IMG/VR virus record: IMGVR_UViG_3300025131_000561
Location: 1 to 20,182 of that record
Length of the DNA: 20,182 nucleotides
Direction: 5' to 3' (one strand)
Source: a virus
Of this stretch, positions 35-16,114 are shown one piece after another (the stretch's first letter is position 1; every line of letters begins with the position of its first letter). A program made the translations under genes and the position numbers. The notes beneath the pieces were generated by a model. The model worked only from the letters and a program-made list of their open reading frames with translations. It did no database searches and was not told the DNA's origin.

Positions 35-110
35 TTTCTTGTCTCCTTTTTTTGTTAAAGTCAGTACAATAACTCTCTTGTACCGCTATTTTATATAATA
101 CTATAAATTT
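35..110 (-). promoter_or_regulatory. Intergenic region with a TATA-like element and small hairpin upstream of the leftmost gene
   Basis: This is the only sizeable gap in the left third of the window. Read on the minus strand it holds an AT-rich element around 100-86 (TATTATATAAAATAG). It is followed by a 6-bp inverted repeat, GTACAA (64-69) with TTGTAC (78-83), and then by the ribosome binding site of the leftmost gene. The AT element could be the -10 of a phage promoter giving that gene its own transcript. The hairpin has no following U-tract, so it does not look like an intrinsic terminator and may instead act in the mRNA leader. No -35 or activator site was recognised. Confidence 0.25.
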
Positions 111-967
111 AAATCTTTGTCAAGTCTAAAATTATTATTTTGAACTACTGAGCTGTTCAACAAACTAAATGCATAGATATCATTGTAGTTAGTTGAAAAA
201 ACTCCGTAGCTCATCTTCATTTTATCATATTGTTTTTGTTCTTTTAGCTGCTCTCCGATCTTTTTTAACAGTGTCCCATCGGTTTGGAGCGTTTTTTCAG
301 GCACCCCATAATAATACCTCTTTTCTCGCGGTATGTCAAGATCAAAAAATAGCTTTTCTTCACCAGTTTCGTAATTTAATAAACTAAAAGTTGACATTCG
401 CGCTGTCTCTACGAAAGGAGCAAATGTGGTAGTTTCCGCCTCCGAGTTGTTAAACACATTCATCATATGAATTGTATATGCAATTAATTCATTCAATTTG
501 TCAAAGTGATCTCGGATGGGGACATCCCCAACGATTTTAGCTATTTGCTCGTTATCTATCAAATATATCCTTTCGAATACAGCGGATCTAGCGTATTCTT
601 GAAGTACATGAAAAATAACATTATCGTTGCGCAGCTTTAATTCTGGGAGAAGTGTCCGATTTGGCCTAATATATAATATGCTTATCTGGCATTTATGTTT
701 TATTTGTTCTATAATCCTAAGTAACGCGGCCGAGATAAAGCCGCAACTCGTTATAAACAAGACATCGTTCTTTACATTTTTAAAAAAGCTTTTTAAGTTA
801 GGGCATTGTTCTTCATATTTTTCAGGGTGATTGTGCTCTGGAAAATTATAACAACGCGGGGCTTTTTTAAGTCCTGTGTCTATCTTATATATTTTATACT
901 GAGGATATTGAGCAAATTTATCTGCTATGCTACATCCTGCTTTTCCTAACCCAACTATTGTCTGCAT
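101..967 (-). CDS. Divergent FtsZ/tubulin-like protein (putative)
   Basis: A 288-residue protein whose architecture follows FtsZ by hand alignment. An N-terminal strand and glycine loop (GLGKAGCSIADKF, residues 6-18) sits where FtsZ has its first nucleotide-binding loop, and IYKIDTG (26-32) where FtsZ has the strand ending in NTD. DVLFITSCGFISAAL (68-82) is at the place of the G-box strand and loop. The stretch RIYLIDNEQIAKIVG (133-147) plus the helix after it resembles FtsZ's strand and helix around IPNDKLLKVLG. The C-terminal part (about 215-276) has the strand-helix-strand-strand pattern of the tubulin C-terminal domain. The GGGTGTG signature is replaced by SCGFISA and the catalytic T7-loop acids are not apparent, so GTP hydrolysis is doubtful. 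The main alternative is a Rossmann-fold protein, since the first loop also fits GxGxxG. The start overlaps the polymerase stop (TAATG), which implies coupled translation. Known phage tubulins (PhuZ) centre the replicating phage genome in the cell; that role is only an analogy here. Confidence 0.5.
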   Translation of the reverse strand: MQTIVGLGKAGCSIADKFAQYPQYKIYKIDTGLKKAPRCYNFPEHNHPEKYEEQCPNLKSFFKNVKNDVLFITSCGFISAALLRIIEQIKHKCQISILYIRPNRTLLPELKLRNDNVIFHVLQEYARSAVFERIYLIDNEQIAKIVGDVPIRDHFDKLNELIAYTIHMMNVFNNSEAETTTFAPFVETARMSTFSLLNYETGEEKLFFDLDIPREKRYYYGVPEKTLQTDGTLLKKIGEQLKEQKQYDKMKMSYGVFSTNYNDIYAFSLLNSSVVQNNNFRLDKDLNL

Positions 968-2151
968 TATCTTACATTCATCCTTTTCATGTCGCCAAAG
1001 TTTTTGCCACCAAAAATATTTACTTTAAACTTGCCTAGATCGGTACTCACAAACTCTTCTTTTATCTCGTGCACCAGCGATTCATCTTTTTCGGATAAAT
1101 CAATTATAAGGGAGTCATGCAAACAAAATGCGATTTGAGATTCCTTATCTTTAAGTAGTTCCCAAACTTTAATCATCTGCCGAAGAAATAGATCAGCCGC
1201 CGTTGATTGAATAATATAGTTTAAAGCGTGGTGTCTGTCTGCTTCAATCTCTCTATTAAAGTGTGTTTTGACACGAGTTCCATCCCAATATTTTGTTAAA
1301 AGCTCCTCTCTATCATACCACTGATTCGAAAGACGATCTTTTGATTCTGGGTTGTACAGCCATGCAAATATTCTCTTTTTGGCCCCTTCTCTTGTGCCTA
1401 CACCTTTGTATACATTTTTCAAGTTCCAGGCATGCAAATCTTCATGTGGCTGCTCCTTACCCAAGAGCGCAAGCATTACGCGAAGTTCTGCGGCATTGTA
1501 ATCTAGCTCTAAAAACCACTTGTTGTTGGGTTTTAATATTGTTCTATATTCTTTATCCATTGTTAAAATCGGAAAAGATTTTGATGTAAGCCTTCCAGTT
1601 TTAGTGCCTTGTGCATTGTACACAATATAAGGAGATGTGTCATTTATTTTTTTAAGGAATCGGCGCACTTTAAATTCGTAACGGCGTGCATCTAAGGAGG
1701 TTGTATCTATATTTAGTTTCGTATTTTTTATCTCTGTTAAAGCTTTCGCAAGGGCCGCCATAAATTCATAATTTTGTGGTTTTTTAAAATTTGAAAAAAC
1801 ATGGGCGCAAATTTTGCTCTTAATACGCGCATAGCTTAATAAAAAGTGCGGGGGTACAAGATCAAAAAAGCAATGCTCTTGAAGTTCTAATTTCGCTTCA
1901 GTCATTGCCCGATGAAAAGCTCCTAATTTTCTATTTACATCCTCCCACTCTTTCCTTAAATGGTCGGGGCACGCCTCACTAAGGCTTTTGCCGCCGCAAT
2001 AATATTTTGCGTATTCAACATCCTTATTTTTTAGAAATTCTGAATAACTCCATGTTTTTGTAAGGGGGGTTGGTAGTTTATCTTTATGAATTTTGTCTTT
2101 CACAAAAACAGCAACACATTTCTTTTTATCATCGAAAGTCTGGAAAATCAT
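967..2151 (-). CDS. Family A DNA polymerase, polymerase domain only
   Basis: Template-directed DNA synthesis. All core family A motifs are visible: TKTGRLTS (183-190); motif A LDYNAAELRV (216-225) with catalytic D217; the O-helix R254-x3-K258-x3-F262-x3-Y266, with the same spacing as E. coli Pol I R754/K758/F762/Y766; NYIIQSTAADL (311-321); and motif C LHDS (344-347) with catalytic D346. The usual HDE reads HDS here. F262 at the position of F762 is the dideoxy-discriminating form. Only about 180 residues precede the TGRLTS motif, too few for both a thumb and a 3'-5' exonuclease, and no exonuclease DxE motif is seen, so proofreading must be separate or absent. Split polymerase and exonuclease genes are known from Rhodothermus phage RM378, as I recall. 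T4 itself uses a family B enzyme. The gene follows a virion-type gene by 4 bases and overlaps the next start by one base. Confidence 0.93.
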   Translation of the reverse strand: MIFQTFDDKKKCVAVFVKDKIHKDKLPTPLTKTWSYSEFLKNKDVEYAKYYCGGKSLSEACPDHLRKEWEDVNRKLGAFHRAMTEAKLELQEHCFFDLVPPHFLLSYARIKSKICAHVFSNFKKPQNYEFMAALAKALTEIKNTKLNIDTTSLDARRYEFKVRRFLKKINDTSPYIVYNAQGTKTGRLTSKSFPILTMDKEYRTILKPNNKWFLELDYNAAELRVMLALLGKEQPHEDLHAWNLKNVYKGVGTREGAKKRIFAWLYNPESKDRLSNQWYDREELLTKYWDGTRVKTHFNREIEADRHHALNYIIQSTAADLFLRQMIKVWELLKDKESQIAFCLHDSLIIDLSEKDESLVHEIKEEFVSTDLGKFKVNIFGGKNFGDMKRMNVR

Positions 2152-2155
2152 TAGA

Positions 2156-3571
2156 TTAGTACTTAATGTTAGTGGCCTCTGGTTCCTTTTCTTTTTTAAT
2201 TATATCAGAGGCTTTATAGGAATGCAAGCCTGAACTAATGGAGGTTCCAAAATATTTTATTTTATAAGGAGCTTCTTTATCAATTGGGATTTTTTCATAT
2301 ATGTTTGTTCTTTGCACTAAGGAACCCAAATAAGAAATCGCGGCTTGTATACCAAAAGCTCTATTATAGTCTAATATTTTTTTCATTGCCGCAGTGAATT
2401 GCCGCGGCCTAAATCTAATGTGACTTTCTGCTAATCTTATTTTTAAATAAACTGGTAAGAAATATTCATCTGTATATTCCTTTTGAAATTTATTATCGAA
2501 GTCGAGGGGGATCGTATCTCTAGCGCCCTCACTTATACTTGTTTCATATCTGTTGCCGTCGATATTATTCCAAGTGGTATAAGTACAATTATTTATTTTA
2601 TATATTGTGCCGTAGGTCTTAGAATTTGGGTTGACCATCAAAGTTGCATATAAATTCCAGAGGCGGGCCTTTAAGCTTTCATATGAGAAGTATTCGCTTT
2701 CATAAAAATAACTAGAAAAAACACTATTATCCTCTAGGTTCACTCCAAAACGTTCCATATAGCCCGAGGGTTTTGGATTGTCAGGGTTTGGGTCGGACCA
2801 CGGACATATGCCCGGATGTTCGCCATGTTTACCAGTCATGATAGGCGAATCCATATTTACAGCAACTCTCCAAGGTGCATTTTTATCTACATAAAACCCA
2901 AAAGCTGTAGCAACTCTCAAATATCTATTAAAAGAAGGCTTAGAGATAAAATTATTATATTTGGCAAGATCATCGCCATAAGGGAAGCGCCCCAATTCAA
3001 TAAAAAGGCCACTAATAGCGTTGGGGCAGCGTGGAGAAACGATGTAGCCAGTTTTTGTTATTGGAAATTGATCAGCCATTAAGCGAGAATAGCTTATAAA
3101 TTCTGTGACTAGATCATTAAAATTTTTAATTTTTCTATTAATTTTAGGTACATTTATGTAGCTGTTTGCAAAAACTTCAAAAACATTTTTTACAAAATGA
3201 CTATTGTAAAGTTGATGAACACTTTTAGTTGCGGAGCGAGGCATAAAAGAAGGAAAAAGGTCCTTAAACAACCCTTGTGTTGCCAGTGCTTTATCCATGA
3301 ATTCTTTAAAATCTTTGAAGGCAGCAACAACAAAATCTAATGCTAAAATTAAGCCGGGGCCCGGCAACTGTGCCATGTTTACTTCGGAAGGATATATGGG
3401 TGTGCCATGTATATCTACCTTTCCGTAAAATGGTTTTTCATATATAGTATCCAAAGGGGTTGGGTCAAAGAGGCGCGAAAAAGCTTTTTCTTTGTATAAC
3501 AATCTTTGCTCGAACAAAGCTGGCTGCCCTACTGTGTTTGAGGCGTAAGGTTTTGTGTCAAAATTAGCCAT
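2156..3571 (-). CDS. Unrecognised 471-residue protein between baseplate and polymerase genes
   Basis: I do not recognise this family. The sequence is rich in aromatic residues (F, Y) and asparagine, with no signal peptide. One short hydrophobic stretch (LPGPGLILALDFVVAAF, 69-85) is too short and isolated to be a confident membrane segment. A distinctive central segment reads AFGFYVDKNAPWRVAVNMDSP (split by position: AFGFYVDKNA then PWRVAVNMDSP), followed by a Pro/Asp/Asn-rich loop. The C-terminus is charged (KKEKEPE). Its start overlaps the stop of the upstream hub-like gene as TAATG, so it is probably made with that protein. This favours a virion or baseplate component, but the polymerase 4 bases downstream leaves a replication-related role open. 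The gene is certain; its function is unknown. Confidence 0.8.
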   Translation of the reverse strand: MANFDTKPYASNTVGQPALFEQRLLYKEKAFSRLFDPTPLDTIYEKPFYGKVDIHGTPIYPSEVNMAQLPGPGLILALDFVVAAFKDFKEFMDKALATQGLFKDLFPSFMPRSATKSVHQLYNSHFVKNVFEVFANSYINVPKINRKIKNFNDLVTEFISYSRLMADQFPITKTGYIVSPRCPNAISGLFIELGRFPYGDDLAKYNNFISKPSFNRYLRVATAFGFYVDKNAPWRVAVNMDSPIMTGKHGEHPGICPWSDPNPDNPKPSGYMERFGVNLEDNSVFSSYFYESEYFSYESLKARLWNLYATLMVNPNSKTYGTIYKINNCTYTTWNNIDGNRYETSISEGARDTIPLDFDNKFQKEYTDEYFLPVYLKIRLAESHIRFRPRQFTAAMKKILDYNRAFGIQAAISYLGSLVQRTNIYEKIPIDKEAPYKIKYFGTSISSGLHSYKASDIIKKEKEPEATNIKY

Positions 3572-6423
3572 TAGAATTTAATCACTATCGGGTATTTTGC
3601 AAAATCAGGCAGGCCTGCTAATGCTTCTGCTCTTTTTTGTTCTAGCTCTCGTACGCGGGCGGCGAGGTGCACTTGATATTCACTAGATTGATCTTTGGTG
3701 AGAGTCAGTGGTTTGTATAAGCTGCCATTTCGAATAGCAGTATCAGCTATTGTAAGAACGCCCTTGACTTTTGTTTCCCACTTAGAGCTTGTAAAATAGG
3801 TATCTACTCCAATGACATAATAATACCCTCCGTTCATAATAAGCTCTTTAGAAAAGTGACCTCCACTAATCAAGTCCGTATTAATATAAAAATACTGACC
3901 AATATAAAAATATGGATTACCAATTAAGGTCAATTCGCAACTAAATTTAGCAGGCTTAATAACTCCTCTTTCGCTGTCAGTTCCAGATCCGGCCGCTTTC
4001 CTCCACATGGCAGTAGCAAATAACGCATCAGTGTTTTCTGTAAAGGTTACTTTTTTTAGTAATCCTCTATTGGGGCCTCCCACCATAAAATGAAAAATAC
4101 CCTCTACTCGATCTTCTAGCAAGTTTGCTGAAAGAGTTGATTTAATTCTTTGCTTAAACGGTTCGCTGTTCTTTGCGTGTAACAAGAATACATTAGAAAT
4201 TTTATTAATGGGGAGCTTTTTAAATGTTCGAAGGAATTGTTTATTTTTACCGTTCAAATCTAAAGTTGGATTTTTGTGGTGGCCTTTTTTAGTGAGCTTG
4301 CTTTCTACTAGTCTTGTAGGGAGATCAATAGAGGTAATATCTAATTCAAACTTTTGACGCTTTCCGTTAACCGCCTCTAACATGGCGCCGCCCGGGCCAG
4401 AGCCCGCTGTGGAAATTACATTGCTCATAACAAACTTAATTAGGTCTCGAAGAAATAACATTAAGGGGTATGCTTTTTTTCCTTCTCCTACAATTTTTTT
4501 GGCTAAAAAATTTACAAAAATTTCTAAAGATATAGGTAAATAATATAAACTACTTATCAAAACATTTGTGCGGCCGGGGGGAGTATATTCCATTATTCCA
4601 AAAATGATCCTAAAGTTGGGCGCCAATTGTTCTATTCCTTCTCCAAAGTTGTTGTGTTTCAGTATAGTAGAAATTAAATCTCCCAGCGTAAAAAACATAA
4701 TCTTTTCACCAGGAGTATAATCATCTGCTAAGAAAAATCTAGTTGGAATACTAGTTTTTTTATCACTTCCACTAGTAATGACCTCAGTTTGTGTGCCCAA
4801 TGTCTCCTTAACTTTGGTGTTTGCTGCTTCTGCGTCACTTTTATTAACGACCCCCCAGTCCGATTGTATGGAATTTATAATCAGTTGTTCTTCTGCGGCG
4901 TCTCCTTCTGACTCTACTCCACCTTCTTGAATTTCTTTCTGATATTTAAGATAGTTTTGAAAAGCGCTTTCTTTGGTAGTATCTAGCCACATTACTCGAT
5001 CATTGTTCAGCAATTCCTTAACAAAAACATATAAATTGCGGCTGCGGATTGTTGCTTCTAAAACTCGAAGCTTTGCCTTTATTTTTTCTTGTTCTTTTTG
5101 TAATGCCTCTTTATACTTTTTTGCGCCGCCTTCATCAATTCCCGGAGCTAATTGTCGAAGCGATTTGTTAACTCTTGCCTCTTCTTGGGCTTGATATTGC
5201 TCAGATGAAATTTGTCTTGCTGGTAACTGTCGCGCAATTCCTCGTAAGCTTTCTAAATTGCTTGTGAATTGATTGGTAAAGTTTGCTTTTTTTGCGGAAG
5301 CTTGAAGGGCTGTATAGTCCTTAGATTTGGCGTCTCCAACGCTGGCAAACGTTTCTCCGGAGTTTTCAACCCTTTCTTGGGCTTTGTCGATGGCCTTGTT
5401 GGTCGCTTTTAGCTGTAGAAGGGTGTCTTTCTGTTTTAATAAATCTTGGAACCGCTTCGCCCGGGCCCCCTTAGCATTTCTCGCGGCGGCTTCCCAATGT
5501 GTTAACTCAACTTTATTTAGCTCTGCTTTTAGTTGACGAATTTCTCCATTATCATCGAGACTGTAACTATTCATTAAATCAGCATTGACGTTACTCATCG
5601 CCCCTTCCAGGGCGCCTTTATATTGTATAGTTATTGCTACAGACCCATCTTCTAGAAAGTCCATAGTGTGCGTATACATATCTCCAATAAAATTCATTCT
5701 TGAGTTTCTAACAGCGTTAAAAAAGTCCTCACCTCCTCTTTTTTCTTTAAATATTGGATTATTTGGGTTTGCATTCCACCCTACAGACAATCTTATTCTA
5801 AAGGCCGCTGGGAGGGCTCTAGGGTCCGTGTCCGCCGATAAACTGCCGGGAGGATATCTAATCAAATCTGCATATTGAACACTAAATCCCTCCGGACTCA
5901 TCCACTCTGCAAATAAGGTTTTAACATCATTGAAAACTAGTTTTATACTAACTGACATGATATTAGCAGAAAAGGGGTTCTTCCCCGCACCGTCCATTTT
6001 CAAATCAACGCTTTGGAGGCCGGCCTCCCTTCCTCGAAAGGGTGCCGCTAATAGATTTTCAGGCGCCCATTCCTCATTAAAATTAGTATAAGCTTTAAAA
6101 GGAAAAAGAACTTCCGACACAGTTTGTCTATTTTTAAGATAAACTTTATATATTTCAATATGTGGCACTAATTGGCTATAATCGATGGGGCGTCCCTCGA
6201 AGAAAGTCATGACGTCTGGAGAAACCGTTAACTTATTAATAATTGCATCGCTGGATTGGTCTGTTTTTGCTAACTTAATATATTTGCTGACGGAGGCGTT
6301 TGGAAGTGTATGATCTGCCAAGGGATTTATAAGGGGGTGAAGATAAGTCATCAAAAATGCTTGTTTGTACCACGATTTTTTTAAATTGGCATTTAATAAT
6401 TGTGCTGTGCAGTCAGTAGTCAT
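3571..6423 (-). CDS. Large tail/baseplate protein, probable hub component with gpD/gp27-like C-terminal domain
   Basis: A 950-residue protein. The N-terminal 290 residues are rich in predicted beta strands. A charged helical region with heptad character (about 293-360, continuing after a break to about 470) suggests a coiled coil. The C-terminal part contains LTLIGNPYFYIGQYFYI followed by GYYYVIGVDTYFTSSKWETKV. This is the arrangement seen in tail hub proteins of the gp27 and P2 gpD type, where a strand pair 'L-GNP--x-G' precedes a beta barrel ending in 'Y-V--V-H/D'. Position after the tape measure and gp53-like genes agrees with a hub or central baseplate role. No lysozyme or peptidase motif was recognised. 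T4 gp27 is 391 residues, so this protein is far larger and would have extra domains. The assignment is an inference from pattern and context. Confidence 0.5.
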   Translation of the reverse strand: MTTDCTAQLLNANLKKSWYKQAFLMTYLHPLINPLADHTLPNASVSKYIKLAKTDQSSDAIINKLTVSPDVMTFFEGRPIDYSQLVPHIEIYKVYLKNRQTVSEVLFPFKAYTNFNEEWAPENLLAAPFRGREAGLQSVDLKMDGAGKNPFSANIMSVSIKLVFNDVKTLFAEWMSPEGFSVQYADLIRYPPGSLSADTDPRALPAAFRIRLSVGWNANPNNPIFKEKRGGEDFFNAVRNSRMNFIGDMYTHTMDFLEDGSVAITIQYKGALEGAMSNVNADLMNSYSLDDNGEIRQLKAELNKVELTHWEAAARNAKGARAKRFQDLLKQKDTLLQLKATNKAIDKAQERVENSGETFASVGDAKSKDYTALQASAKKANFTNQFTSNLESLRGIARQLPARQISSEQYQAQEEARVNKSLRQLAPGIDEGGAKKYKEALQKEQEKIKAKLRVLEATIRSRNLYVFVKELLNNDRVMWLDTTKESAFQNYLKYQKEIQEGGVESEGDAAEEQLIINSIQSDWGVVNKSDAEAANTKVKETLGTQTEVITSGSDKKTSIPTRFFLADDYTPGEKIMFFTLGDLISTILKHNNFGEGIEQLAPNFRIIFGIMEYTPPGRTNVLISSLYYLPISLEIFVNFLAKKIVGEGKKAYPLMLFLRDLIKFVMSNVISTAGSGPGGAMLEAVNGKRQKFELDITSIDLPTRLVESKLTKKGHHKNPTLDLNGKNKQFLRTFKKLPINKISNVFLLHAKNSEPFKQRIKSTLSANLLEDRVEGIFHFMVGGPNRGLLKKVTFTENTDALFATAMWRKAAGSGTDSERGVIKPAKFSCELTLIGNPYFYIGQYFYINTDLISGGHFSKELIMNGGYYYVIGVDTYFTSSKWETKVKGVLTIADTAIRNGSLYKPLTLTKDQSSEYQVHLAARVRELEQKRAEALAGLPDFAKYPIVIKF

Positions 6424-12667: not shown

Positions 12668-15600
12668 TTAGTCCTCAAAAGATGCTCCGGAGTCCGTAAT
12701 AATGAAATCAATTGCAATATATTCAATTGCTCTCGCAGGTTTAATATATATTTTTGCATACAAAATATTTCTATCGATAAGATCCGGGGTAGTGGTGGTT
12801 TCATCTAAAACTAATTTATAATCAGTAATACCTAGGCCAGCTTTAACATCGCTAAGGAATGGTTCAACTTTTGATTTAAATCTATTCCACGTTACTTGAA
12901 CATTCTGATCAAAAAGAATTGTAGCTGCAAATCTTGAAACTTGCTTCTTTAAGAAAAGAAGCAGGCGGCGAACATTAATTCTATCAAGTGCCGAAGCTTG
13001 CAATTGCAACGTTTTTTGACCAAAAATTACAATGCCTTCAGCTGGGAATGTTGCAATTGGGTTAATATTTGCCTCGTATAGATCATCGCGTTGTCTAGAA
13101 GTGAGTCGTTCTTCAACTCCTACAACTGGAATTCCCGCTGCTCGGTTTGCGCTCAAACCGCCTCGTGTGAAGCCGGCTGGTGCGAACCAAAGTTGTGAAT
13201 TCGCCTCACTATAGGACATGGCACCTATCGCAACAACTGATGGGGGTGCCCATAAAGTTGCGCCATTTATAGTGTCTCGAATTTGAACCCATGGATAATA
13301 GGCGCAACCATAACTACTATTAATTAGCAAATACCTTTTCTTGTTTTTGATAACGTTAGCGACGCTGCCCTTTCGTTGAGTTCGCGACTGATCATTTTCA
13401 GTGTCGGGAGTATAACCGTCCTTAAGATCAATAACGGCTAATGCGTCGGCGCGATTTTCACACATTTCTACTAATTTTGTATTAAGTGTATTGTTGGTTA
13501 TACCAGGCATTGCTATTAAATTATATTCTACAACTTCTGGATCTCGCAAAGAATCAATAGCAACATTAATAGAATTATAAGGCGCCCAGGTTGTCTCGGT
13601 TTTCTCCTCCAAGTCTGAGTTGTTAAAGGCGTCTCTTTCTGTAATGTCTAGGCCGTCCGAGCCGCCGTGCAAGCAGGTTGTAAACTGATTCCAGCCTGCG
13701 GAGGTTCCTCCTTCTACGTCGTCGATGACATTTTGATACGAAGCGCTTGCGGGGCCGAGGGTGCCCTCGGATGCGGCTTTTGATCCTGTGTGAATCGTAT
13801 AAGATGTTCCGTTAACTCGGGATCCCGATTCATAAACAGCATGTACGCCGTAAGATCCGGTATAAGTGCTCGAAGTAGTCTTAATATTTCTCACATCATC
13901 AAGAGAGAAAACCCATGAATATTCAGTGAGGCCTGTCGAGGCATCCCAAGGATCAGTGTCTTCTGCTTTGCCGCGCAACACTTCGAGGACGCTTTGATCA
14001 AAACGACTAGATCTATATGAAGTGTCGGCCCCAAAATAAGCATCTCTGGGATCACTCAAGGTGCCCCCTTCAGACGAACTTGCACGAAGCCTTAAGGCAG
14101 GGAATTTAAATTTTGCATTAACTATTTGGCCTTCGGATGAAGTATTGAAAGTTCCGGCGGAGGGAGCTTCCATCGGATTTGCAGACCCGTATTCAACAAA
14201 CATTCCGGTGCCGCCTTGGGGGGCGCTAGAATAATCATATGTTGCGGCGTCCGATCCCGAAACGGCGAAACCCAAATATCGAGGGGGTCCAAAAACACCG
14301 AAAGGAAGATATTCAGTGTTTGCAGTGCCGCGATCTACTTGATTGTTCATTTCTACATAAACATAGTTAGAACTGTTTGGATAATCACCAAAACTACGGT
14401 AGCGACGACCAGCATCATCCCATTGTTCAAACCTATCACCAATTAGTGTGGCAATATAATTATCCGAAGCGGGATTTAAGTTGCATTTATTGTATTGTTC
14501 TAAAATTTGTGGATTCGCGTCGGTATCGTCAACTTCTCGAATTACAACTGTAAAGCTACCGTACGGTTCTATGGTTGTGTCTACTGATGCTTTTATATCT
14601 TTAATAGAAACTTTTATTTTTCGTTGAGTCTCTTCTCCCATTTCGCGGCCGCATAATCGGAATAATTTCTGCATCGCGGACGGATTATAAGCACTCGAAT
14701 CACTTGAAAGGTCTTGTGAGATAAACCATCCTGTTTTTGCAAACTGCTTTGATGGGCTTTTACTCTTACTCATTCTAAAGTCGGCGCCATCCGTACTACC
14801 GTCTGGGGATGCTAGCCTCAATATAACTCCATAGCATGACGATGGGGTTGATCCACTTACGCCAACCGCGCTACCGCTACTATCAGTTCCCTTAAAGGAT
14901 TTTAAATTACCTTCAAAGCTTTCCCCTAGCCAGTAATTAAGAGTGCGTGATGAATTTAAAGTGGCGTTGGTTAATGTTGGATTGGTATTAAAAACTTTTC
15001 TAATATAACGTGCCGAAGTAGGATCAAAATTAAATGAACTATCAATGACAGTATCAGAAGCACTTGAACCCTGAATGACAACCTTAAATGTAGGGCCGCT
15101 GTCGGCGGCGCGCACAAAAGTTGCCATCCCTGCACTATAAGAGTTTGATCCTGTAACTATTGTTTGGCCAGAAAGAGCAATGGCGCCGTTGTTTAAATAC
15201 CAAACGGCAGCAAGAGTTCCGTTTAGGGCTGCGCCAAGGGCGCGTGATTCGCCACCCGAAAATAATGTATCGGTGCCGATTGTTGACCCAGTTACGGAAT
15301 ACGCGGCAGCCAAACTAGAAGTCAAACTATTAGAGTTGGCTGTTGAGCCAATGGCTGAAGCGGTAAGGTGAACAACGGCGCCATCAGAATTAGAGCTGAA
15401 ATCAGCCGATGCAGAAGCATTAATAAGCGCGGCAAGGTTAGTGGCCGCCTCTGTCTCGCTAGCGCCGGTTAAGAAATAATCTTGTACCCAGCTAGGATCA
15501 AATGCCCCTGTTGCTGTAAATATGTGACTGCCGGCTGAGCCGGTAAGCATAATGGGTTTCGTATCCATGGATGCCGTGGCCTCCATGGTTATAGAAGCGC

Positions 15601-16114
15601 TAGCATATGCTGTACCTGAAGTGATCGCAGATCCTGATGGCCATGGCGTAGAAGTGGTGGGTATGATAGATGAGCCAGGGGTGCCTTCACAGATAAAAAG
15701 CCCATAGGCGCCTCCATTTTCTGAGTAACTAGATGTTCCATCAATGTTACTGGTCTTCCAACCAGCCCAAGCAGTACTGTCGTTGGCGTTGCTGTTGGTT
15801 TGACCCAGAAGTCTAACCATTGTTACTGGAGAGTTGTTTCGAAGCCATGCCTGCGCTGCATATGCTGCATATGTCGGCGCCGTGAAGTTCCCAAAACGCC
15901 AGACGTCACCGCCTTGATTGCCCGCGAGTGGTTTACCAAAAATATCAACAAAGTCTGAGAAAGAATTAACCTGAATTGGCTTTAGTGCCGGGCCTTGTGC
16001 AAGCCTTCCTATAATTGCTGGGCCCATGGCTGTTGGTTCTGCCAATAACTGAGAATTATCAATTTCTTTGATAAAAATTCCTGGTGATATAAACTTAAAT
16101 TTTCTAGACGACAT
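12668..16114 (-). CDS. 18: Tail sheath protein (gp18-like), enlarged
   Basis: An 1148-residue contractile sheath subunit. The N-terminus (ISPGIFIKEIDNSQL, 9-23), the region QVNSFSDFVDIFGKPL (48-63) and YAAYAAQAWLRNNSPVTMVR (82-101) match the sheath pattern. The last 105 residues, with INVRRLLLFLKKQVSRF and VEPFLSDVKAGLGI, are the typical C-terminal domain that interlocks neighbouring subunits. T4 gp18 has 659 residues, so about 490 are extra. A Ser/Thr/Ala/Gly-rich block at about 155-345 contains ETEAATNLAALINAS and VVHLTASAIGST, a beta-rich domain pattern seen inserted in other phage sheaths. It probably lies on the outer surface of the tail, where extra domains may aid stability or host contact. 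The start follows GGAG with 9 bases between, and a late motif copy lies upstream. Confidence 0.93.
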   Translation of the reverse strand: MSSRKFKFISPGIFIKEIDNSQLLAEPTAMGPAIIGRLAQGPALKPIQVNSFSDFVDIFGKPLAGNQGGDVWRFGNFTAPTYAAYAAQAWLRNNSPVTMVRLLGQTNSNANDSTAWAGWKTSNIDGTSSYSENGGAYGLFICEGTPGSSIIPTTSTPWPSGSAITSGTAYASASITMEATASMDTKPIMLTGSAGSHIFTATGAFDPSWVQDYFLTGASETEAATNLAALINASASADFSSNSDGAVVHLTASAIGSTANSNSLTSSLAAAYSVTGSTIGTDTLFSGGESRALGAALNGTLAAVWYLNNGAIALSGQTIVTGSNSYSAGMATFVRAADSGPTFKVVIQGSSASDTVIDSSFNFDPTSARYIRKVFNTNPTLTNATLNSSRTLNYWLGESFEGNLKSFKGTDSSGSAVGVSGSTPSSCYGVILRLASPDGSTDGADFRMSKSKSPSKQFAKTGWFISQDLSSDSSAYNPSAMQKLFRLCGREMGEETQRKIKVSIKDIKASVDTTIEPYGSFTVVIREVDDTDANPQILEQYNKCNLNPASDNYIATLIGDRFEQWDDAGRRYRSFGDYPNSSNYVYVEMNNQVDRGTANTEYLPFGVFGPPRYLGFAVSGSDAATYDYSSAPQGGTGMFVEYGSANPMEAPSAGTFNTSSEGQIVNAKFKFPALRLRASSSEGGTLSDPRDAYFGADTSYRSSRFDQSVLEVLRGKAEDTDPWDASTGLTEYSWVFSLDDVRNIKTTSSTYTGSYGVHAVYESGSRVNGTSYTIHTGSKAASEGTLGPASASYQNVIDDVEGGTSAGWNQFTTCLHGGSDGLDITERDAFNNSDLEEKTETTWAPYNSINVAIDSLRDPEVVEYNLIAMPGITNNTLNTKLVEMCENRADALAVIDLKDGYTPDTENDQSRTQRKGSVANVIKNKKRYLLINSSYGCAYYPWVQIRDTINGATLWAPPSVVAIGAMSYSEANSQLWFAPAGFTRGGLSANRAAGIPVVGVEERLTSRQRDDLYEANINPIATFPAEGIVIFGQKTLQLQASALDRINVRRLLLFLKKQVSRFAATILFDQNVQVTWNRFKSKVEPFLSDVKAGLGITDYKLVLDETTTTPDLIDRNILYAKIYIKPARAIEYIAIDFIITDSGASFED

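Follow-up and report, generated by a model that had tools for sequence, protein, structure and literature searches.

The TUB gene and its surroundings

The window, i.e. the whole stretch of DNA that we analysed (20,182 nucleotides), is a 20-kb virus fragment in which T4-type myovirus genes were recognised for the major head protein, the tail sheath, two tail tubes, and baseplate hub and wedge proteins. At positions 101-967 it contains an open reading frame for a protein of 288 amino acids, which we label TUB and which is assigned to the tubulin/FtsZ fold on the basis of an AF2 model, Foldseek and an hhalign comparison with FtsZ. The initial annotation had reported this reading frame without naming its strand; it lies on the minus strand, with its ATG at 967-965 and its stop codon at 103-101. 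The overlap with a polymerase gene that had been described as TAATG is also real: at 965-969 the stop codon of the upstream gene overlaps the TUB start. This upstream gene (967-2151, minus strand) encodes a family A DNA polymerase of 394 amino acids (PF00476, E 7e-17), hereafter PolA.

Upstream of PolA lie two genes of unknown function, both on the minus strand. The cluster 3 protein (2156-3571), found at 68 of 95 loci, had no family match at E <= 0.01, and the cluster 5 protein (3571-6423, 950 amino acids), which is encoded near the baseplate genes and recurs at 57 of 95 loci, had no significant family match. The tail sheath at 12668-16114 is 1148 amino acids long and matches known sheaths in roughly its C-terminal half; ahead of that lies what looks like a large N-terminal insertion or extension.

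TUB is predicted to have a tubulin/FtsZ fold

The AF2 model of TUB, built with 95 diverse family sequences, reached a mean pLDDT of 93.5 and a pTM of 0.90 (an earlier model from 12 close sequences, with a pLDDT of 32, was discarded). All 50 matches listed by Foldseek against the PDB were FtsZ or TubZ, the best being S. aureus FtsZ (7ojd; E 1.2e-12, probability 1.00, TM 0.70), and B. cereus TubZ (4ei7) matched at E 1.8e-12 with a TM of 0.67. The top BFVD match (E 1.8e-11, TM 0.76) was a phage protein that carries an FtsZ annotation, and the six matches there at E <= 0.001 included FtsZ- and tubulin-annotated proteins.

The profile comparison pointed the same way. Aligned with hhalign, the TUB family profile (95 members) and a profile of ten FtsZs scored 43.4 (probability 69%, E 4.3e-5, 238 columns). 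Column shuffles of the FtsZ profile (100 in total) scored no more than 22.1, the reversed FtsZ profile 13.2 and 11 unrelated neighbour families 10-18, while the positive control, FtsZ against PhuZ, gave 33.6. HMMER profile searches of the PDB reached only the N-terminal Rossmann-like segment, not FtsZ.

The tubulin/FtsZ reading of the initial annotation was based on the order of FtsZ elements, and these are all present: loop 1, GLGKAGCSIA (residues 6-15), the G-box position, TSCGFISAALL (73-83), the segment RIYLIDNEQIAKIVG (133-147) and, according to DSSP on the model, the C-terminal strand-helix-strand-strand (E213-223, H233-244, E251-259, E265-272). Both the fold search and the profile-profile search that it had proposed as checks came out in favour of this reading, with FtsZ and TubZ as the top PDB matches and an FtsZ score above those of the shuffles. 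The remaining possibility, that an NAD(P)-binding Rossmann protein (TrkA-N or saccharopine-dehydrogenase-like) has been mistaken for a tubulin, draws on weak Pfam matches (TrkA_N in 15 members, Sacchrp_dh_NADP in 7), all of which, where located, fall on the N-terminal GLGxAG segment. The full-length model, however, fits FtsZ and TubZ at E ~1e-12, whereas Rossmann enzymes appear in BFVD only near E 4e-3 with a TM of ~0.3, and both the N-[FY]xxxN pocket and the C-terminal domain of the tubulin type are found in TUB. Insofar as the model is correct, the fold search rules a Rossmann identity out, and we find it scarcely credible. Membership of the tubulin/FtsZ superfamily is thus well supported, as judged from the model and the sequence profiles.

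An unnamed family in uncultured viruses

Relatives of TUB were found on at least 156 contigs in IMG/VR, with identities down to ~25%; judging by contig names alone, the sampled environment is probably marine. No relatives were detected among 50,697 phage records, whether the window protein or divergent members served as the query, and none were found in bacterial and archaeal genomes, where the scan works via short seed patterns. The family is unnamed and, in these searches, found only in uncultured viruses. Our literature search, which did not extend to subscription journals and preprints, returned no account of the family or of a tubulin gene fixed to polA, and TUB is a new form of phage tubulin.

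In sequence searches, the window TUB alone had no significant match in Pfam, PHROGs, the PDB or cultured phages. The curated PF00091 cut-off was not met (best family member at E 0.0073, no hit for the window protein), and TIGR00065, the NCBIfam FtsZ model, gave sub-threshold matches in 7 of 49 members, one of them spanning T4 to H7 in register (residues 74-172 on profile positions 104-200). The PhuZ families phrog_4733 and PF22334 (TubZ_C_2) were not matched by the TUB family, while the phiKZ PhuZ control did match. A match to phrog_5908 (E 1.5e-5) in one of 49 members is unexplained; its carrier was not among ten others tried. In L042, TUB is split over two overlapping reading frames (386-826 and 802-1188), possibly through a sequencing frameshift.

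Conserved and lost parts of the putative nucleotide site

All the TUB features described below lie on the minus strand of the window. The T1 loop (residues 6-14, GLGKAGCSI; 926-952), which reads GLGxAGxNI in the family, aligns with FtsZ GVGGGGGNA, and its glycines G6, G8 and G11 are all present in 134 of 140 members. The guanine-contact triad N-[FY]-N (N139, F155 and N159; 491-553) is complete in 128 of 140, and the hhalign register places these residues on FtsZ N165, F182 and N186. Their tubulin equivalents are N206, Y224 and N228, and in the FtsZ and tubulin structures the equivalent residues contact guanine.

Other parts of the site are altered. At the T4 (G-box) position (residues 74-80, SCGFISA; 728-748), the signature [SAG]GGTG[SAT]G is not kept, and in a motif census of 140 members most of the family has GSGK[IV][SA]G instead. 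The loss of GGGTGTG noted in the initial annotation therefore stands for the window, but full loss is specific to the window subclade, as most of the family retains a glycine loop. In that subclade the T4 loop is short of two glycines, the common Lys is gone as well, and Asn stands in place of R116. Given these changes, nucleotide binding may have been lost in the window member, as far as its sequence allows one to say. T3 (GAGxxPE in FtsZ) is not recognisable in the TUB family.

The polymer interface and the family signature

In FtsZ, the T7 and H10-S9 loops form the canonical subunit contact, and T3, T7 and H10-S9 touch neighbouring subunits. T7 and H10-S9 are among the most variable regions in TUB: the mean entropy is 2.57 bits in the T7 slot (residues 174-188; 404-448) and 2.80 bits in H10-S9, which also contains indels, while the family as a whole averages 2.02. 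In ten FtsZs the T7 entropy is, by comparison, below average (0.93 versus a mean of 1.52). Helix H8 is absent from the model, in which H151-173 runs directly into E191-197 (DSSP), and so is H9. The T7 acids that had been described as not visible in the window protein are indeed missing, with no conserved acid pair in the family. The hydrolysis site of FtsZ is shared between subunits and arises only when the T7 loop of the first reaches the nucleotide bound by its neighbour (PMC4603965). Because the T7 acids are unconserved, H8 is missing and the FtsZ site needs T7, the simplest inference, for which there are no GTPase data, is that the TUB family does not use T7-type hydrolysis.

The most conserved stretch of the family is a new motif, FHxLQEYxRSG, which in the window reads FHVLQEYARSA (residues 119-129; 581-613) and lies at the C-terminal end of helix H5. 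Its mean entropy of 0.69 bits is the lowest among the regions measured, and Q123 and R127 are invariant in all 140 members. That this end of H5 is opposite the nucleotide is inferred from fold topology rather than from coordinates. The C-terminal tail FRLDKDLNL (residues 280-288; 104-130) is strongly conserved, but only within the window subclade; it is predicted to be disordered (the last block has a mean pLDDT of 39) and is possibly a docking peptide.

Linkage to PolA and the replication cassette

PolA has no recognisable 3'-5' exonuclease domain, and PF01612 was not found in 12 long relatives. Its catalytic motifs are in place (motif A, D217/E222; O-helix, R254/K258/F262/Y266; motif C, H345/D346): R187, D217, R254, K258, Y266, Q315, H345 and D346 are invariant in 77 aligned relatives, and the catalytic residues are intact in 77 of 77 aligned sequences with the exception of one E222D.

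PolA was then used as a query without reference to TUB, and the best 80 of 557 contigs were kept, more distant ones remaining outside the count. Among these, TUB followed PolA at each of the 76 loci with room for it, and the linkage reported for the window, which the initial annotation had suggested looking for in related phages, thus generalises. There is no gap, or an overlap, in 41 of the 76 loci, and in 21 the spacing is within 30 nt; in many members, polA and TUB are parted by a gap of ~200-950 nt or by small reading frames. Over 95 loci the gene order is constant, with baseplate-type genes, the two conserved unknowns, PolA, TUB and then replication genes. Those after TUB encode, often behind a small Sm-like protein, a gp32-like ssDNA-binding protein, a UvsX-like recombinase, a 5'-3' (flap) exonuclease and a DnaB-like helicase, and a ribonucleotide reductase sometimes ends the cassette.

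Mirror-tree distance correlations were 0.79-0.95 for all neighbours (30 common loci), with PolA not singled out, and the PolA-TUB linkage could stem from shared descent and co-expression without the two proteins interacting. Some members have additional genes within the cassette. By eye, L086 11466-12071 encodes a ClpP/SppA-like protein between the gp32-like and UvsX-like genes, as seen in some members of its subclade, and some members carry a gene inserted after TUB and ahead of the Sm-like one (L051 8806-9369), whose product has the look of an MT-A70-type methyltransferase.

Long relatives and relatives without TUB

Each of 12 records of 120-192 kb contained exactly one TUB copy and no second family match. 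In 11 of these 12 long relatives a DnaE-type polymerase is also encoded (split in G007); one example is a 1144-aa DnaE-type (Pol III alpha) gene at G002:C1:121885-125319, the record of L020, ~15 kb from TUB. These T4-type phages therefore combine DnaE and PolA with T4-like gp32 and UvsX, and they probably have two polymerases, of which PolA is one, because 11 of the 12 encode the DnaE type. No family B polymerase was found in the long relatives. Sliding clamps of the T4 gp45 type and DnaN were likewise undetected there, although divergent ones could have been missed. The idea that TUB substitutes for a sliding clamp of a sole polymerase, PolA, was dropped in view of the DnaE-type genes. For the same reason, any statement that TUB serves "the" phage polymerase needs care.

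The nearest annotated relatives of PolA are those of Flavobacterium phage immuto, a cultured isolate from the Baltic Sea, and of the 484-kb LR756508. In both, the slot after PolA holds no TUB despite similar cassettes; a tubulin split in two reading frames after PolA in immuto was considered, tested and rejected. A quick tree separates the PolAs that are linked to TUB from both of them, albeit with low support. As immuto and LR756508 are without TUB in that slot and stand apart in the tree, TUB was probably gained once in the TUB-linked PolA lineage and then kept, which implies a role that is advantageous but not universally required. The absence of TUB from the immuto and LR756508 modules also means that PolA can work without it.

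Possible role of TUB

The loss of the parts with which FtsZ burns GTP, alongside a retained guanine pocket and the linkage to PolA, suggests that a tubulin fold is used here in DNA replication and not as a normal filament. The reading that we favour, with confidence that is no better than evenly balanced, is that TUB, with its tubulin fold, binds a guanine nucleotide and assists phage replication without T7-type hydrolysis; its role is inferred. Reduced and divergent as it is, TUB would most likely bind guanine nucleotide and work with the short PolA and the downstream gp32-like ssDNA-binding protein. We infer that GTP or GDP occupies its site, serving as a switch or as a structural ligand, that without the T7-type catalytic interface polymerisation would be uncoupled from FtsZ-style hydrolysis, and that any assembly would be short or hetero-oligomeric. 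The invariant H5 surface FHxLQEYxRSG might then be a contact for a partner, be it TUB itself, PolA or the ssDNA-binding protein, and the likely effect would be that TUB scaffolds or localises PolA at replication forks or gaps. A more specific proposal, in which a non-filamentous, nucleotide-binding TUB belongs to the DNA replication machine and FHxLQEYxRSG replaces the T7/H8 interface and binds the polymerase or the ssDNA-binding protein, is possible but doubtful. Nucleotide binding, the lack of hydrolysis, the partner surface and the role of TUB are all inferences, with no biochemical or in vivo data behind them.

The chief rival, which we hold to be rather unlikely, is a cytomotive filament of the PhuZ/TubZ kind, in which some non-canonical longitudinal contact takes the place of T7/H8 and which would position or segregate phage DNA as it replicates. 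TUB belongs to the same superfamily as PhuZ and TubZ, and phage and plasmid tubulins of known role position or segregate DNA (PMC4244570, PMC3678025). PhuZ of 201phi2-1, with its weak longitudinal contact and a polymerisation that depends on the C-terminal tail, is a case of a phage tubulin whose interface is not the canonical one (PMC3678025), and the window subclade does have a conserved disordered tail. Across the TUB family, however, this tail is unconserved, T7 and H10-S9 are among the most variable parts and H8 is missing; nor was a TubR-like DNA-binding adaptor recognised beside TUB, though adaptors of novel sequence could be missed.

Two further readings are less likely than both the favoured one and the filament. 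A pseudo-GTPase, i.e. a tubulin fold that binds no nucleotide and acts as a purely structural scaffold, would agree with the missing T3 and degenerate T4, and with SCGFISA and N116 in the window subclade, but an empty pocket is not expected when the guanine-contact positions are kept in 128 of 140 members, down to ~25% identity, and the T1 glycines in 134; we consider it improbable. We give still less credence to TUB as an antagonist of host FtsZ, a tubulin mimic that would stop division during infection by capping FtsZ or assembling together with it. Some phages are known to inhibit FtsZ assembly, lambda Kil being an example (PMC3961180), and TUB offers an FtsZ-like core without the opposite interface, yet the T3, T7 and H10-S9 surfaces are unconserved both with FtsZ and within the family, and TUB sits inside the replication cassette in all sampled genomes.

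Comparison with known systems

With FtsZ (TIGR00065/PF00091), TUB shares the predicted fold over its whole length (TM 0.70), T1, the T5 position, the NDKL/DNEQ segment, the guanine-contact positions and the C-terminal strand-helix-strand-strand. It differs in being only 10-15% identical, in the altered GGGTGTG and the loss of T3 GAGxxPE, in lacking the conserved T7 acids (NxDxxD), H8 and H9, and in being encoded next to a phage polymerase while meeting no curated family cut-off. The family is a natural experiment on what stays useful in a tubulin after the catalytic polymer interface goes.

TubZ has the same fold (4ei7, E 1.8e-12, TM 0.67) and is likewise carried by a mobile genetic element, but TUB is ~100 residues shorter and its gene lies in a replication cassette rather than in a partition operon. 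The neighbours of TUB are replication genes, none recognised as TubR in a general annotation that included no TubR- or tubC-specific query. PhuZ of nucleus-forming jumbo phages (phrog_4733, PF22334) is also a phage-encoded protein of the tubulin superfamily and similar in size. An hhalign comparison of the TUB family with phiKZ PhuZ, however, gave a probability of only 3%, and TUB is carried by myoviruses of the T4 type, whose replication cassette is also of that type. To our knowledge, the phage tubulins of known role (PhuZ, TubZ) are all filament formers; a non-filamentous TUB in replication, if true, would take the tubulin superfamily beyond its cytoskeletal roles.

The immuto cassette has the same components (PolA, small reading frames, gp32-like, RecA/UvsX-like, 5'-3' exonuclease, DnaB helicase and ribonucleotide reductase, beside T4-type tail genes) but lacks a tubulin-like gene in the place behind PolA. 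With many diverse sequences, a known gene partner and this cultured outgroup, TUB is directly testable.
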